A stretch of DNA of 26,685 nucleotides from a virus: positions 1-26,685 of IMG/VR virus record IMGVR_UViG_3300035698_020060; one strand, given 5' to 3'. A program made the position numbers and the translations under genes. The notes beneath the pieces were generated by a model that did no database searches, was not told the DNA's origin, and saw only the letters and a program-made list of their open reading frames with translations. This document shows positions 1 through 7,689 of the stretch, piece by piece (position 1 is the stretch's first letter; each line of letters starts with the position of its first letter).

Positions 1-495
1 CTTATCTACATTACCAAACAATGTTTCTATTCTTTTTCTTGCTTCATCTGGCTTTTTACTGTGCTTTGTTCTTTCCGCTTCAATTAATTGAACTACATTG
101 TTTGCTTCTTTGTGTTGCCTCATATTACCTCTCGCACCGAATAAACATATTTCGCAATTTTTCATAGTCCACGCACCCACATTCGCACAAGTATTCCCTT
201 TGCTTGTTATTTTCTTCCATATAAAAACAATGGTTCTATACTTAAACCCCCACGCTTCCATCAAAGCAATTCCTTGTTTTAAATGGCTATCTGTAACCCA
301 TAAGAACAAAGCTGCATCTTTATCAGCTAAATTATTTACAGGTAATTCAAGTAATTGCTTTTCGCTCATTGTTTCATATTCATCATTTATGCTTCTTGCC
401 TTTCGTGTTTGCTTTCTTTTTGGGAAAGTTTCTTGATATACAGGTCGGCTGTATCCCCACGCAGGGTCAGCATAAATTACTTTGTATTTTTTCAT
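1..495 (-). CDS. MT-A70 family adenine-N6 methyltransferase, 3' end outside window
   Basis: This open frame of 165 codons has no stop and runs off the left edge, so the C-terminus is missing. The protein begins MKKYKVIYADPAWGYSRP. The motif DPAW (residues 10-13) stands where MT-A70 enzymes carry the catalytic DPPW, with one Pro replaced by Ala. Further family hallmarks follow in order: ALFLWVTDSHL, EAWGFKYRT, an NCEICLFGARG strand and, near the cut end, SKKPDEARKRIETLFG, the usual C-terminal helix. Family members transfer methyl groups from S-adenosylmethionine to adenine N6, and in phages this usually protects DNA from host restriction. The start at 495 is the only reasonable ATG. It lies about 30 bp beyond an attC-like palindrome (525-591) and has no clear promoter of its own. 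Family assignment is firm; the target sequence cannot be told. Confidence 0.88.
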   Translation of the reverse strand, partial: MKKYKVIYADPAWGYSRPVYQETFPKRKQTRKARSINDEYETMSEKQLLELPVNNLADKDAALFLWVTDSHLKQGIALMEAWGFKYRTIVFIWKKITSKGNTCANVGAWTMKNCEICLFGARGNMRQHKEANNVVQLIEAERTKHSKKPDEARKRIETLFGNVDK

Positions 496-524
496 CTTTC
501 GTTATTTTAATCCGTTCATACTAC

Positions 525-591
525 ACCTAACACCGTATATAATGCATAATTTGTAAAAACAAATTCCGACACCATATACAACACGTTAGCT
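525..591 (-). repeat. attC-like imperfect palindrome A
   Basis: The arms pair as CTAAC (527-531) with GTTAG (585-589), GTATAT (535-540) with ATATAC (574-579), and AATTTG (548-553) with CAAATT (560-565) around a TAAAAA loop. Unpaired spacers separate the blocks and differ in length between the two sides, as in integron attC sites. Read on the minus strand, the site ends in GTTAGGT, which fits the attC core consensus GTTRRRY exactly. It starts with AGCTAAC, one base off RYYYAAC. It lies just 3' of the 117-aa gene and just 5' of the methyltransferase gene. It could instead be an unrelated phage hairpin. Confidence 0.45.
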
Positions 592-594
592 GCA

Positions 595-630
595 AGCACT
601 ACACTTGTTCATTTAATCAAGTGTAGTGCT
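595..630. repeat. perfect 13-bp hairpin between the 117-aa gene and palindrome A
   Basis: Bases 595-607 are the exact reverse complement of 618-630, with a 10-nt A/T-rich loop. The hairpin lies 3' of the leftward 117-aa gene, where a terminator would be expected. Neither strand has a T-tract after the stem, so a classical intrinsic terminator is not supported. It abuts palindrome A with only three bases between them. Confidence 0.6.
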
Positions 631-658
631 ATACTGCCAAAAGTAAAAAGCCACCGCA

Positions 659-1012
659 CTATTTCTTTTTTTTAGACCTATATGCTTTCATTGCTTTTTT
701 TTTATCAGCCCCCTTCTTCCACGATCCAGCAGCTAATTTTTCTGCCTTACGCTTACTTTTTACTTTAATCATCTCTCCTTTAGCAGCAGCTTCTTTTGGG
801 GTTTGAGATTTCCAATCACCTGCCTTAGTTGAGGATTCTTTTCCCTTTTTAGGTGTAATTGTTGGAAATACACCAAAATCGCCACGCTTCTTAGATGTGT
901 CTCCAACCCACGCCATTTTGTGAGAAGATGTTGTTCCATCTGAGTTTTTAAGGGCTGTAGTTCTCATTTCTCTAATCGCCTTCTTTTTGTTTATTACTAC
1001 TTTCTTTGCCAT
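659..1012 (-). CDS. 117-aa lysine-rich phage protein
   Basis: The protein is strongly basic and ends in a run of lysines. The central part carries SHKMAWVG, VFPTITP and, further on, GEMIKVKSKRKAEKLAAGSW. This order (a HKM-type strand, a FPT-I/L strand, then a helix ending in A-GSWK) resembles a small domain I recall from many tailed-phage proteins near structural genes. Its biochemical role is not known to me. The basic tail suggests contact with nucleic acid or an acidic partner, which is inference. The gene stands apart from the operon to its right, with 216 bp upstream, and is bracketed by two attC-like palindromes. No promoter matching the TAnnTTTG type was found upstream. Confidence 0.7.
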   Translation of the reverse strand: MAKKVVINKKKAIREMRTTALKNSDGTTSSHKMAWVGDTSKKRGDFGVFPTITPKKGKESSTKAGDWKSQTPKEAAAKGEMIKVKSKRKAEKLAAGSWKKGADKKKAMKAYRSKKKK

Positions 1013-1123
1013 TTTATATGGTATTAAATTATTGGGTACTCTTTAAAAGATTTTCCCCACCCTCTTTTTTATTTTTTAGTTCAGTATTTTAATCAACTTT
1101 TGTGCTTATTTTCCGTGCCAGTC

Positions 1124-1186
1124 AGCTAACACGGCATCATATTGCATTGTGAAAAACAACGACAATATCGGCAACGAGAGTTTAGC
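1124..1186 (-). repeat. attC-like imperfect palindrome B
   Basis: The outer arms GCTAA (1125-1129) and TTAGC (1182-1186) pair. ATATTG (1139-1144) pairs with CAATAT (1163-1168), and TTGT (1147-1150) with ACAA (1156-1159) around an A-rich loop. Unpaired bulges lie between the blocks. On the minus strand it ends GTTAGCT, one base off GTTRRRY. It shares with palindrome A the stretches TTGTTTTT, ATGCA-ATAT and CGTGTTAG, so the two appear related. It lies between the end of the 70-aa gene (1229) and the start of the 117-aa gene (1012). The match to attC is weaker than for palindrome A. Confidence 0.38.
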
Positions 1187-1228
1187 CGAGAACCGTTAAG
1201 GAAGCGTTCTATATATTCTTTTTCAACT

Positions 1229-4459: not shown

Positions 4460-4763
4460 CCCTTTTCAAATTAAATTTAGCTAAAAGAGCATTTATCATC
4501 ATATCATCATGGTATGAATATACATCTCGATGGGTAAGATTATTGAGTAGGTTTTCTGCACCACTTGTTAATCCTTTATACCTAGAGACCAATTCAGTGA
4601 TGATCATATCAGTATCGGTCACTCTAGGCGGAACACCCATAGTAAATGATTTCCCATAAGTCTTGGCAAGTTTACTCACCTCTTTGCTTACCATATCAAT
4701 CAATTCGTTGTTTGGTATATCAGCTAGTGCTTTCTCAAAAGCCTCTTGTCTAGTTACGCTCAT
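4440..4763 (-). CDS. 107-aa hypothetical helical protein
   Basis: The protein is predicted by eye to be mostly helical, with charged helices at both ends and no cysteine or membrane segment. Features include GVPPRVTDTDMII in the middle and a C-terminal RDEEASS. I recognise no family. Its start overlaps the GIY-YIG stop by four bases (ATGA), a sign of coupled translation, so it probably works in the same DNA-processing pathway. No catalytic motif is visible. Confidence 0.6.
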   Translation of the reverse strand: MSVTRQEAFEKALADIPNNELIDMVSKEVSKLAKTYGKSFTMGVPPRVTDTDMIITELVSRYKGLTSGAENLLNNLTHRDVYSYHDDMMINALLAKFNLKRDEEASS

Positions 4764-5200
4764 AAAAATAGTTTTGGATAAAATTTACCTAGTATGTTTT
4801 CATTATAAGAATTATTGCCAGGTTCAATGACTCCATCAATCATTTGGTACTTTATTTCGAAATAGGACATTGCTTGTTTTGTACTACAAACTTGTAAAAT
4901 CTCTTTGGTATATTTGGCACCATCAGAAATTGATTGATTGAGTGGTACACAAGATCCTGTATATTCGGACCATTTTGGCATAACTGTCGTCACCATCTCA
5001 TAAAGTTTCTTACGCTTGTCTGTGATCTCTGCCTTTTGTTTTTTGCCAAAATGTTTTTTACGAGTTGAAAACAAAGACTTCTTTCCAATATAGCTTCTGT
5101 TATTTGTATGATCAGTTATCTTATAGATAAAACCTATAGTTCCTTCCGGAAACTGCGAGACATCTTTCATCTCGACCCCTTTATACGTCCAGTAAATCAT
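4760..5200 (-). CDS. GIY-YIG family nuclease
   Basis: The GIY-YIG core appears as GFIYKITDHTNNRSYIGKK (residues about 23-41), with FIY replacing GIY and YIG retained, followed by an Arg/Lys-rich helix. Later blocks WSEYTGS and YTKEILQVCSTKQAMSYFE match a conserved phage branch of this family, in which the Glu of the second block is the likely metal-binding residue. Such enzymes nick or cut DNA; this branch has no separate DNA-binding domain, consistent with 146 aa. It overlaps recA by four bases (ATGA) at its start and the 107-aa gene at its end. A recombination-linked role is more likely than homing because it is an integral operon member, but that is inference. Confidence 0.8.
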   Translation of the reverse strand: MIYWTYKGVEMKDVSQFPEGTIGFIYKITDHTNNRSYIGKKSLFSTRKKHFGKKQKAEITDKRKKLYEMVTTVMPKWSEYTGSCVPLNQSISDGAKYTKEILQVCSTKQAMSYFEIKYQMIDGVIEPGNNSYNENILGKFYPKLFL

Positions 5201-6162
5201 TTTTGTTGCTTTAGTCCATCAAGTACTTTTTTTCTTAATTCTTCAAGAAGCTCTGGGTTATCATTCATTAAAACTGTGACCTTTTCCAAGCCTTGCCCTA
5301 ATTTAGTATCACCGTATGCATACCAAGACCCTGACTTTTTAACGATTTCCATTTCGGTTGCTAATGAGATAATTTCTGCAGCTGTATCATAGCCTTCCCC
5401 GTATTTTAGAATAACCTCGCATTTTTTGAAAGGAGGAAATACCTTATTCTTCTTTGTCTCAAAAATCATCTCGTGCCCAACAGCTTCCCCTGCAACCATA
5501 ATAGGTTGTGATTTTCTGATGCTTAATCTGATTGATGCATAAAACTTCATGGCATTACCTACACCAATTGCTTGTCCTGCATAAAGGCCAATCTTATCTC
5601 TGATTTGAGAAATGAAGATTACAGTACATTTGTGTTTTTTGGCAACTCCTGTGATTTTCCGTAAGCCTTTTGAGAGCATCCTTGCTTGTAAGCCCATTTG
5701 CTGATCACTCATTTCCCCTTCTAACTCAGCTTTTGGCACTAGCGCAGATGTTGAATCGACTATGGCTAGTGCGATTTCCCCCGTCTCAATCATTGCAATG
5801 GTTACATCAATTGCATTCTCCCCACTATCTGGTTGTGAGATAGCTAGTTCATCAATATTCACACCTAGTGATTTTGCATATTCCGCATCAAAGGAATGCT
5901 CTGCATCACAAAAAAAGGCATTATGCCCATCTCTCTGTGTTTGTGCAATTGCTTCAATTGTCACAGTAGTTTTACCTGCGGATTCGGGCCCATAGATTTC
6001 GATAATACGTCCTCTTGGAAATCCTCCTCCTGTGATATGATCGAGCCACAAGGATCCACTAGGTAAAAATTCTATATCTGTACTCGTATCAGATAATTTC
6101 ATTACAGACTCTTTTCCATAGAGTCCTTGTACTTTGGCTAATGCCTCTTTCGATATACCCAT
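5197..6162 (-). CDS. recA: RecA recombinase (phage-encoded)
   Basis: Walker A is GPESAGKT (58-65), followed by the catalytic-Glu region CDAEHSFDAEYAKSLGV (85-101), Walker B ALAIVD (131-136), the segment KAELEGEMSD and the DNA-binding L2 region (about 188-205) after FISQIRDKIG. This order matches bacterial RecA closely. RecA forms ATP-dependent filaments on single-stranded DNA and drives strand exchange. At 321 aa it is about 30 residues shorter than the E. coli protein and lacks the long acidic C-terminal tail that restrains filament formation, so it may be more active. It begins 9 bp after the TnpB-like gene and overlaps the nuclease gene, forming a recombination module with the SSB-like protein. 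Alternative phage recombinases such as UvsX or Sak4 fit less well. Confidence 0.95.
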   Translation of the reverse strand: MGISKEALAKVQGLYGKESVMKLSDTSTDIEFLPSGSLWLDHITGGGFPRGRIIEIYGPESAGKTTVTIEAIAQTQRDGHNAFFCDAEHSFDAEYAKSLGVNIDELAISQPDSGENAIDVTIAMIETGEIALAIVDSTSALVPKAELEGEMSDQQMGLQARMLSKGLRKITGVAKKHKCTVIFISQIRDKIGLYAGQAIGVGNAMKFYASIRLSIRKSQPIMVAGEAVGHEMIFETKKNKVFPPFKKCEVILKYGEGYDTAAEIISLATEMEIVKKSGSWYAYGDTKLGQGLEKVTVLMNDNPELLEELRKKVLDGLKQQK

Positions 6163-6171
6163 TTTACTTTT

Positions 6172-7422
6172 TTAGTTGATGTAATCCGTGAAAAATAACT
6201 CTTTTCCAAACACTCTTCTCGTTACTGATATCCCGTAGAACACCCGCTTTTTACGCTTCTTTGCCCTAACGCTCCATTTTCCCTTTTGATCTTTTGTGAA
6301 GACTAAGTACTCGTACCACTTACCCCTCAGTTTTCTATCCATTTCAAAGGCAAGTCCTAAACTTTTTACGTAGAGAATATTATCTTTAAAATGAAAGCCT
6401 TCGCTTATTATAAAGTGATCGCAGACCCTCTCGTCAACCCATGTCCTGTTATTATTTGCACGTGTTCTTGCACATGCTGCAATCACTGACATCTTCAAGA
6501 GGTCTTGGTATAACCCCTCTTTCTTATAGAATTTTTTTTTAACGAAATAGGATTCTGAGTAAACCTCACTCTGATACCTAGGAGTCATCGCATTTTTAAT
6601 GCCCGTTTGGTAAGAGCATAAGGCGGTGTTTAACTTTGTTTGAGTCCCTGTTAATGGAGTTAGTTCAACCTTATTCGTATCTGTTTCTAATGACCCCTTC
6701 TTATCTTTCAATAAGTCAACTTTATCCAACTTTTCTAGTAGTTCTAGCCTAGCGCCCCAAGTACCATCTGTATTACTTGTGATAATAATCCGCTCAACTC
6801 CTCCTGGTGGGAGTGTCTCATTGATTATGATTGAAGACTTATAGTTGTTCAAGTAGAGAAACCCATTTCGTACTCTATAACACATTTTTGCTTCATAGGA
6901 TGTGTTTTGATCTAAGAATCCTCGGAACTGTCGGATCTCTGTATAGGCCTTTACTACAGCCCTATGTGCCACCTTGTAAGTTGCATTTTTTGCCCAATCA
7001 AATTGTTTGAAGTGCTTAGCTTGCTCAATCATGATGTATGATGGAGTATGTGGTAGATTCCTACCATCTTCAAGTCTTTCCGGACAATTGACCCTTGACC
7101 TCTGGACTTTTTCTGAGTTATCATAAAAATAATAATACCCATCATCCTGTTTTTGAAAAGGTTCAGCAAGTCTTCTCATAGTATACTCGTAGACCTCATT
7201 GAACAACCTCTTATCATTGAGAAGGTATTCCATCTGCTTTGTAGTCGGACTCAATGTTACGTTGAATACATACACTGCTCTTCCTTTCTTTGGCTTCCGT
7301 CCCCGCTTCTCCTTCCGACTCCTGCGCTTTGGCTTTTTTGAGGCCCCCTCAACACCTTTGTGAATCCTTTGCCCTACAAACTCAGCGGTGTAGTCATCGG
7401 ATATATGTGATTTTCTCTCCAT
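6172..7422 (-). CDS. TnpB/OrfB-like protein without a recognisable RuvC nuclease
   Basis: A basic N-terminal tail (about 28-48) is followed by YVFNVTLSPTTKQMEYLL (51-68) and FNEVYEYTMRRL, resembling the opening of IS605 OrfB/TnpB. A helix VAHRAVVKAYTEIRQFRGF (151-169) resembles their conserved QALRRLDRAFKNF helix. Next comes a barrel-like block, GFLYLNNYKSSIII then TSNTDGTWGARLELLE (187-230), like the TnpB WED domain. A second similar block appears at 343-390 (FHFKDNILYVKSLGLAFE, then DQKGKWSVRAKK). Neither the GIDLG-type RuvC-I motif nor the later Glu and Asp motifs are visible. A canonical promoter ends seven bases before the ATG at 7422, which decides this start over an upstream ATG at 7551. 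It is the first gene of the recA operon. The TnpB link is by eye only; an unrelated DNA-binding protein is possible. Confidence 0.5.
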   Translation of the reverse strand: MERKSHISDDYTAEFVGQRIHKGVEGASKKPKRRSRKEKRGRKPKKGRAVYVFNVTLSPTTKQMEYLLNDKRLFNEVYEYTMRRLAEPFQKQDDGYYYFYDNSEKVQRSRVNCPERLEDGRNLPHTPSYIMIEQAKHFKQFDWAKNATYKVAHRAVVKAYTEIRQFRGFLDQNTSYEAKMCYRVRNGFLYLNNYKSSIIINETLPPGGVERIIITSNTDGTWGARLELLEKLDKVDLLKDKKGSLETDTNKVELTPLTGTQTKLNTALCSYQTGIKNAMTPRYQSEVYSESYFVKKKFYKKEGLYQDLLKMSVIAACARTRANNNRTWVDERVCDHFIISEGFHFKDNILYVKSLGLAFEMDRKLRGKWYEYLVFTKDQKGKWSVRAKKRKKRVFYGISVTRRVFGKELFFTDYIN

Positions 7423-7429
7423 TAGTTGG

Positions 7430-7461
7430 CAAATGTAAAACATTAGTTTGACTTTTCCAAA
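7430..7461 (-). promoter_or_regulatory. Bacteroidetes-type promoter for the leftward operon
   Basis: On the minus strand TTTG (7461-7458) is followed after 20 bp by TACATTTG (7437-7430), matching the Bacteroidetes consensus TTTG-N19/20-TAnnTTTG. The box ends seven bases before the ATG of the TnpB-like gene, so the transcript would have almost no leader. Confidence 0.8.
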
Positions 7462-7689
7462 CTTTATATGAAAATAATTAATAGTCCTTATTATATAGGG
7501 CGAAAAGTTATCTAATCGGAGGTTAAAATAAGTACAGAGTGGTGGATTCATAACTGACTGATAACCAATATCTTATTATAGGATAAAACTGCTGTTTTTT
7601 ATTATACCTTTTACCCTAGTTTTTCAAATCAATGTTATTTTATCTTATTCTATTTAATATATTCTTTATCTTAAACATTAAGTTTATAC

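Follow-up and report, generated by a model that had tools for sequence, protein, structure and literature searches.

The window analyzed here is the whole of a 26.7-kb fragment (26,685 nucleotides) from an IMG/VR virus record. Replication-type genes point left from ∼7.5 kb, and packaging and structural genes point right. The portal protein is 32 to 34% identical to those of Cellulophaga phages phi17:2 and phi4:1 (genus Lightbulbvirus) and of phage csAssE-Sib, and because of this resemblance a Bacteroidota host is likely. The minus strand carries, near the left end, site B, a gene encoding 117 aa, site A, and an MT-A70 methyltransferase gene that crosses the window edge. In the replication arm, a SegE-like GIY-YIG endonuclease gene (4760 to 5200) overlaps the end of the RecA gene (5197 to 6162), and positions 6172 to 7551 encode a basic protein of 459 aa that matches no Pfam or PHROG family. 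The features of the left end are given below.

1 to 495, minus strand: MT-A70 DNA methyltransferase gene (start at 495, leaving the window), second and incomplete cassette; Pfam PF05063, 4.2e-23; phrog_359, 6.3e-55
482 to 532, minus strand: 51-bp leader of the methyltransferase cassette, with 100% identity to viral contigs L015 and L016 that stops at the GTTAG end of site A
529 to 587, minus strand: site A, attC-like, heading the MT-A70 cassette (AAC..GTT core; flanks to 525 to 592); PWM score, 30.5 bits; minus-strand fold, z −5.3
586 to 1195, minus strand: complete predicted cassette, 610 bp (site B hairpin plus gene 659 to 1012), supported by complementary ends at 585 to 592 and 1123 to 1130 and by the same rule in relatives
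595 to 630, no strand assigned: perfect inverted repeat of 13 bp with a 10-nt loop, between the cassette gene stop and site A
659 to 1012, minus strand: cassette gene, 117 aa, Lys-rich; no Pfam or PHROG family; relatives in three viral contigs
1128 to 1197, minus strand: site B, weaker attC-like, heading the cassette with gene 659 to 1012; similarity to A, fold z −2.7, and flank complementarity with A; missed by the PWM

No integrase-type recombinase was found in the 26.7 kb, in agreement with the initial annotation, which had described the sites as attC-like palindromes bracketing a phage gene as in an integron cassette. Set against the definition of a CALIN (at least two attC sites with no intI close by), the window holds two sites, of which B is weak, and no recombinase; the sequence is fragmentary, with its end 530 bp from site A. 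Gene 659-1012 had no match among annotated phages, and contig L050, which carries a relative of it, has no recognizable sites beside the gene. The inverted repeat at 595 to 630 is possibly a terminator carried within the cassette.

An attC core is defined by RYYYAAC and GTTRRRY around a hairpin of about 55 to 150 nt. Site A reads CTAACACCGTATATAATGCAT..TTGTAAAAACAA..CAACACGTTAGC on the plus strand and has the ends AGCTAAC..GTTAGGT; site B reads CTAACACGGCATCATATTGCAT..TTGTGAAAAACAA..GTTTAGCC..CCGTTAAGG on the same strand. Both have the outer AAC..GTT around a hairpin (59 nt in A, 70 nt in B), with one mismatch to the consensus each, in AGCTAAC of site A and in GTTAGCT of site B. Reading of both sites confirmed that they lie in the same orientation, share arm and loop sequences, and end on the minus strand in GTTAGGT and GTTAGCT, as first described, and that the methyltransferase start, at 495, is ∼30 bp from the site. 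The existence of both palindromes also stood; their limits were refined to 529 to 587 for A and, via an outer GTTAAGG, to 1128 to 1197 for B, past the right-hand limit of 1186 proposed earlier.

The minus strand of site A folds with −13.4 kcal/mol (z −5.3), and none of 200 shuffles did as well, while the plus-strand fold is weak (−6.8 kcal/mol; z −2.4); a direct comparison of the strands gave −11.0 for the bottom strand versus −6.6 for the top strand. The fold of site B is modest on either strand (z −2.6 and −2.7; −11.8 for the bottom strand versus −11.2 for the top strand). Better folding of the bottom strand, which is characteristic of attC, is thus clear for A, and the strands of B hardly differ. 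The predicted crossover points lie between 585 and 586 in site A (CG^TT on the plus strand) and between 1195 and 1196 in site B. Rfam covariance models gave no family match in the window, even at an E value of 1.

The 17-nt 5′ arm of site A (TAACGTGTTGTRTATGG) was found at 20 viral loci and at 29 loci in a prokaryote genome collection. Among the latter were Flavobacteriaceae/Bacteroidia genomes in which the arm belongs to full attC-like hairpins in strand-consistent clusters; Psychroserpens algicola has at least 11 such sites (up to two mismatches) within 66 kb. The chromosomal array sites are ∼120 to 170 nt long and occur once per ∼0.7 to 1 kb, typically with one ORF each, its stop codon near the site. 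A PWM was built from 97 chromosomal sites using only the columns inside the AAC..GTT core. Its best place in the window was site A, at 30.5 bits, compared to a maximum of 17.0 in 40 shuffled windows (1.07 Mb). Because the training loci had been located with the 5′ arm, the score of that arm is partly circular; the 3′ arm, which contributed 19.2 of the 30.5 bits, played no part in choosing those loci and is not circular. On sequence grounds, site A is a member of the Flavobacteriaceae array-site family. Site B did not match the PWM, and its resemblance to A together with the flank complementarity weakly suggests its identity. Long strand-consistent attC-like arrays were seen at G004:C14 (L122 to L124), G012:C30 (L129), and G042:C1:2739920-2787501; several of these genomes have a ∼390-aa Xer-like recombinase at the array head and resemble chromosomal integrons without the IntI insertion.

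Integrons are bacterial gene-capture platforms in which circular cassettes are joined at G^TT, so that the ends of a gene segment are complementary even between differing neighbor sites. The ends of the 117-aa gene segment in the window, GTTAGCTG (585 to 592) and CAGCTAAC (1123 to 1130), are complementary over 8 nt including the core, and five further matching bases beyond the core are expected by chance about once in a thousand. Because the outer flanks are complementary across the gene at 5 of 7 nt and the two flanks of site A itself match equally well (5/7), complementarity in the window alone is supportive, not decisive. In the chromosomal arrays, 6.04 of 7 outer nt were complementary across the gene segment, compared to 2.61 after permutation (maximum of 3.16 in 2,000) and 2.17 within sites. 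The viral contigs gave 4.42 of 7 (12 pairs, with several sites misplaced by the matrix) versus 2.94 after permutation (maximum of 4.33). The AACG (bottom) strand was the more stable one in 95 of 101 chromosomal sites and 29 of 39 viral sites, which is the asymmetry expected of attC bottom strands.

Gene orientation differed between the two settings. In assignable cases, the gene stop adjoins the site in chromosomes (62 versus 2), and the gene start adjoins it in viral contigs (18 versus 1). An opposite gene end at a site of the same polarity means that the genes of phage cassettes are inverted relative to those of bacterial cassettes, presumably with promoters of their own. No report of inverted genes in phage cassettes was found in the open-access literature.

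Evidence for exchange was sought among viral contigs with relatives of the window methyltransferase. Contigs L015 and L016 share 667 bp at 100% identity, comprising a hairpin and a methyltransferase gene; the block is delimited by AAC^G at either end, and the sequences beyond it are unrelated. A unit of 824 to 828 bp bounded by AAC is common to L017, L018, and L019 (99.5 to 99.9% identity), and a methyltransferase cassette of 613 to 713 bp that ends at AAC is common to L024, L027, and L025 (94 to 95% identity). Each of these units is a hairpin that moves together with its downstream gene, and the variable junction is therefore the AAC^G side. The junction being on that side of the gene strand, the hairpin belonging to a cassette is the upstream one, B for gene 659-1012 and A for the methyltransferase. 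Thus, the cassette reading of the initial annotation largely holds, with this correction, and the cassette-like spacing that it noted (∼600 bp with one gene and one palindrome) agrees with the 610 bp predicted here.

The phage contigs L139 (the same contig as L025) and L140 are nearly identical except in the array. The recombinase region (99.4% identity) and the left backbone (96.9%) are shared, and the segment between them is fully different: ∼4.9 kb with a methyltransferase and other cassettes in L139 and 1.8 kb in L140. This difference is bounded by CTCAAC^G and CTAAC^GTGTATATG, AAC^G at both ends. Within the two array segments, ends are complementary over 9 to 10 nt; since shuffled sequences gave a mean of 5.5 and 1.1 such pairs, the evidence is carried by the chain and its order, not by any single pair. 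ARAGORN gave no support for a tRNA that had been considered within the site loop of L140. When the ends of all alignment blocks were checked for AACG (14 of 60), ordinary homologous blocks diluted the result, so cassette-sized blocks were read one by one. The natural exchange boundaries in the relatives are compatible with G^TT. The earlier suggestion of an exchange hotspot is therefore borne out in related phages, in which genes are swapped exactly at the predicted points (the 667-bp block of L015/L016; L139/L140), and these swaps, with the PWM score of site A, support the attC-like reading. For the window itself, no close relative that would allow a swap test at sites A and B was found; the two terminase relatives, G001 and G002, have neither the exonuclease gene of the window nor an integron-type recombinase and thus provide no such test.

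The leader at 482 to 532 is fully identical to that of L015/L016 although the methyltransferase proteins are only 55% identical. This identity ends on the GTT side of hairpin A, contrary to the expectation from the polarity model, and the most probable explanation is that a promoter or leader is under strong selection. A 39-nt leader after the site is likewise identical in several contigs, and a typical site with its leader gave only short BLAST matches among annotated phages. The model predicts that the methyltransferase cassette ends in ..TACACCTAAC, complementary to GTTAGGTGTA, to the left of window position 1.

The 64-kb contig L025 carries, directly after its cassette chain, a gene for a 277-aa tyrosine recombinase ∼36% identical to a recombinase of the flavobacterial arrays. 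A wider scan yielded 80 viral loci (L145 to L224) with related recombinases of ∼270 aa. An attI-like junction was defined as an AAC within 85 nt before the start codon, ending a segment in which 7 or more of 8 bases are complementary. Such a junction precedes 33 of the 60 recombinases with readable upstream DNA (versus 4.5% of control draws), mostly 36 to 53 nt before the start, and often reads TAAC followed across the junction by TACTATATGTA. An attI-like junction at an integrase with cassettes joined to it, as in a complete integron, thus occurs in relatives (L139/L140 and these 33 of 60) and not in the window. Genes close upstream of the phage recombinases include N6/N4 and C5 methyltransferases and a PAPS-reductase-like protein.

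The viral contigs are metagenomic and may include prophages. A terminase above the Pfam cut-off was detected in 7 of 29 tested recombinase contigs. In L189 the terminase begins where the recombinase gene ends and is followed by a portal gene, in L154 the terminase is 1 kb from the recombinase, and in L171 and L218 a head protease follows the recombinase. By this gene content, at least part of the recombinase-bearing contigs are phage. Most of the site-bearing viral contigs examined, many of which are fragments, lack a relative of the recombinase.

Five bacterial genomes have a recombinase of ∼380 to 430 aa, codirectional with the array genes, 0.4 to 0.9 kb ahead of the first array site; the copy in G007 is interrupted by stop codons. 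The family best matches NF040815 (XerA-like), at or below the cut-off, and the best matches among solved structures are PDB 5hxy and 4a8e. The catalytic R, K, HxxR, H, and Y are conserved. An integron-integrase model matched the array recombinases in two pieces, at 195 and 206 bits versus a cut-off of 265, and none of 10 bacterial genomes had a match above the cut-off. Alignment of the phage protein with IntI4 (PDB 2A3V) revealed that ∼45 residues are missing at the IntI-specific insertion. An IntI with that insertion, the other hallmark of a complete integron, was thus found neither in the aligned phage recombinase nor in the window, and the bacterial relatives score below the integron-integrase cut-off. 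Of the proposed link to integron integrases, the attC-like sites stand; the system is that of a Bacteroidota Xer-like recombinase without the IntI insertion, not demonstrably a classical IntI. Among 120 genomes of Flavobacteriaceae, 60 had a strict 15-nt site core and 54 had the recombinase at an E value of ≤1e-60. The recombinase was present in 19 of the 27 genomes with at least four cores, compared to 21 of the 60 without a core. The two are associated, but loosely, which the existence of further variants of the site would explain.

The site family, end complementarity, strand asymmetry, exact exchange boundaries in relatives, and, in some phage contigs, an array beside its own recombinase and attI-like junction are all read from the sequences themselves. 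We consider it highly probable that the window contains the end of a small array of integron-type cassettes belonging to a Bacteroidota phage and exchanged by a tyrosine recombinase at CG^TT. Each cassette would consist of one hairpin site and one gene, and the minus (bottom) strand of the site would fold into the hairpin that serves as the recombination substrate. Exchange at CG^TT (AA^CG on the gene strand) would move a cassette as a hairpin plus its downstream gene and leave the two ends complementary. The enzyme acting on the single-stranded hairpins may be an array-adjacent recombinase encoded by the phage or by a flavobacterial host; in many of the related phages their own small integrase probably performs the swaps, and phages without one may draw on that of the host or a coinfecting phage. 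Methyltransferase cassettes may be selected as anti-restriction genes, kept because they would protect phage DNA from host restriction.

The most serious alternative is that these are ordinary classical attC sites, acquired as a CALIN and mobilized in trans by a canonical host IntI, with no separate system. CALINs have been described in virulent phages, including Polaribacter phage P12002L (NC_028924) with methyltransferases, and five of six phage attC sites tested, including one from P12002L, recombined with attI1 by IntI1 (Qi et al. 2023, PMC9892861). P12002L has sites of the window's family in the same orientation, and the sites follow attC in their architecture, bottom-strand folding, and flank rule. 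Nevertheless, the subthreshold scores of the array recombinases, with no genome of 10 above the cut-off, and the missing ∼45-aa insertion in the phage recombinase argue against a canonical IntI, and IntegronFinder 2.0 names only Salinibacter ruber with a complete integron in Bacteroidetes proper (PMC9024848); we regard this alternative as unlikely. That the hairpins are terminators or promoter elements, with mosaicism arising from homologous recombination at short conserved intergenic sequences, is a much weaker proposal. It would account for their intergenic position, the T-rich loops of several of them, and the strong conservation of the 39-nt leader after the site. However, exchange ends at the same AAC base while the hairpin sequences differ, complementary gene-segment ends are not expected from homologous recombination, and no T-run follows the stem of site A, which makes this explanation very improbable. 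Scarcely credible is a dispersed repeat or MITE-like element whose hairpins alone are mobilized by a transposase: the one site family does recur many times over in Flavobacteriaceae genomes, but the mobile unit is hairpin plus gene, the arrays are strand consistent with about one gene per site, and an attI-like junction precedes the related phage recombinases.

Beyond the window, the data lean toward a wider proposal, that a second kind of integron exists in Bacteroidota and their phages alike, with an Xer-like recombinase without the IntI insertion, attC-like sites, and an attI before the phage integrase; it would be the phages' own platform for anti-restriction cassettes, with genes inverted relative to the bacterial ones. 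The flavobacterial arrays resemble chromosomal (sedentary) IntI integrons in having one gene and one site per cassette with the site after the gene stop, complementary cassette ends, a recombinase at the array start, and a better bottom-strand fold. They differ from them in their XerA/NF040815-like recombinase without the IntI insertion, its codirectionality with the array in the bacterial genomes read, and a CAACACGTTR core instead of the general GTTRRRY. Conversely, the recombinases resemble Xer/XerA proteins (NF040815, PDB 5hxy and 4a8e) in best family and structure match and conserved catalytic residues, but they lie beside cassette arrays or attI-like junctions, whereas Xer proteins act at one dif site.

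A study of 2023 had reported integron sites from virulent phages, and its phage CALINs, like the window, have attC-type sites between single genes, methyltransferase cassettes, and no integrase nearby (PMC9892861). In contrast to the present data, it contained no cassettes caught in several phages and no link to Flavobacteriaceae arrays; the complete integrons that it listed were all in temperate phages, and no integrase with attI dedicated to a phage was among its entries (PMC9892861). Reviews and surveys mention Bacteroidota only briefly as integron carriers, with S. ruber as the complete case in Bacteroidetes proper (PMC9024848), and no description of flavobacterial arrays or phage-encoded Xer-like integrons was found in the open-access literature. 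A phage-encoded Xer-like integrase without the IntI insertion and with an attI, its tie to the arrays of Bacteroidota, and the inversion of cassette genes in phages thus appear to be new. Phage genomes appear to operate an integron with a minimal integrase of ∼270 aa, which would explain in concrete terms how phages trade accessory genes, those for methyltransferases among them, and would connect the cassette pools of phages and bacteria. With the core site in about half of the sampled Flavobacteriaceae, these results suggest that surveys demanding the IntI insertion missed this type of array, and they offer a compact recombinase for which candidate attI and attC sites are defined.

One recombinase-bearing contig differs in its integrase content. 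In L158 (3977 to 6050), another tyrosine integrase, 415 aa long and different from the integron-type recombinase, comes directly after it, and the L158 phage may thus be temperate as well.
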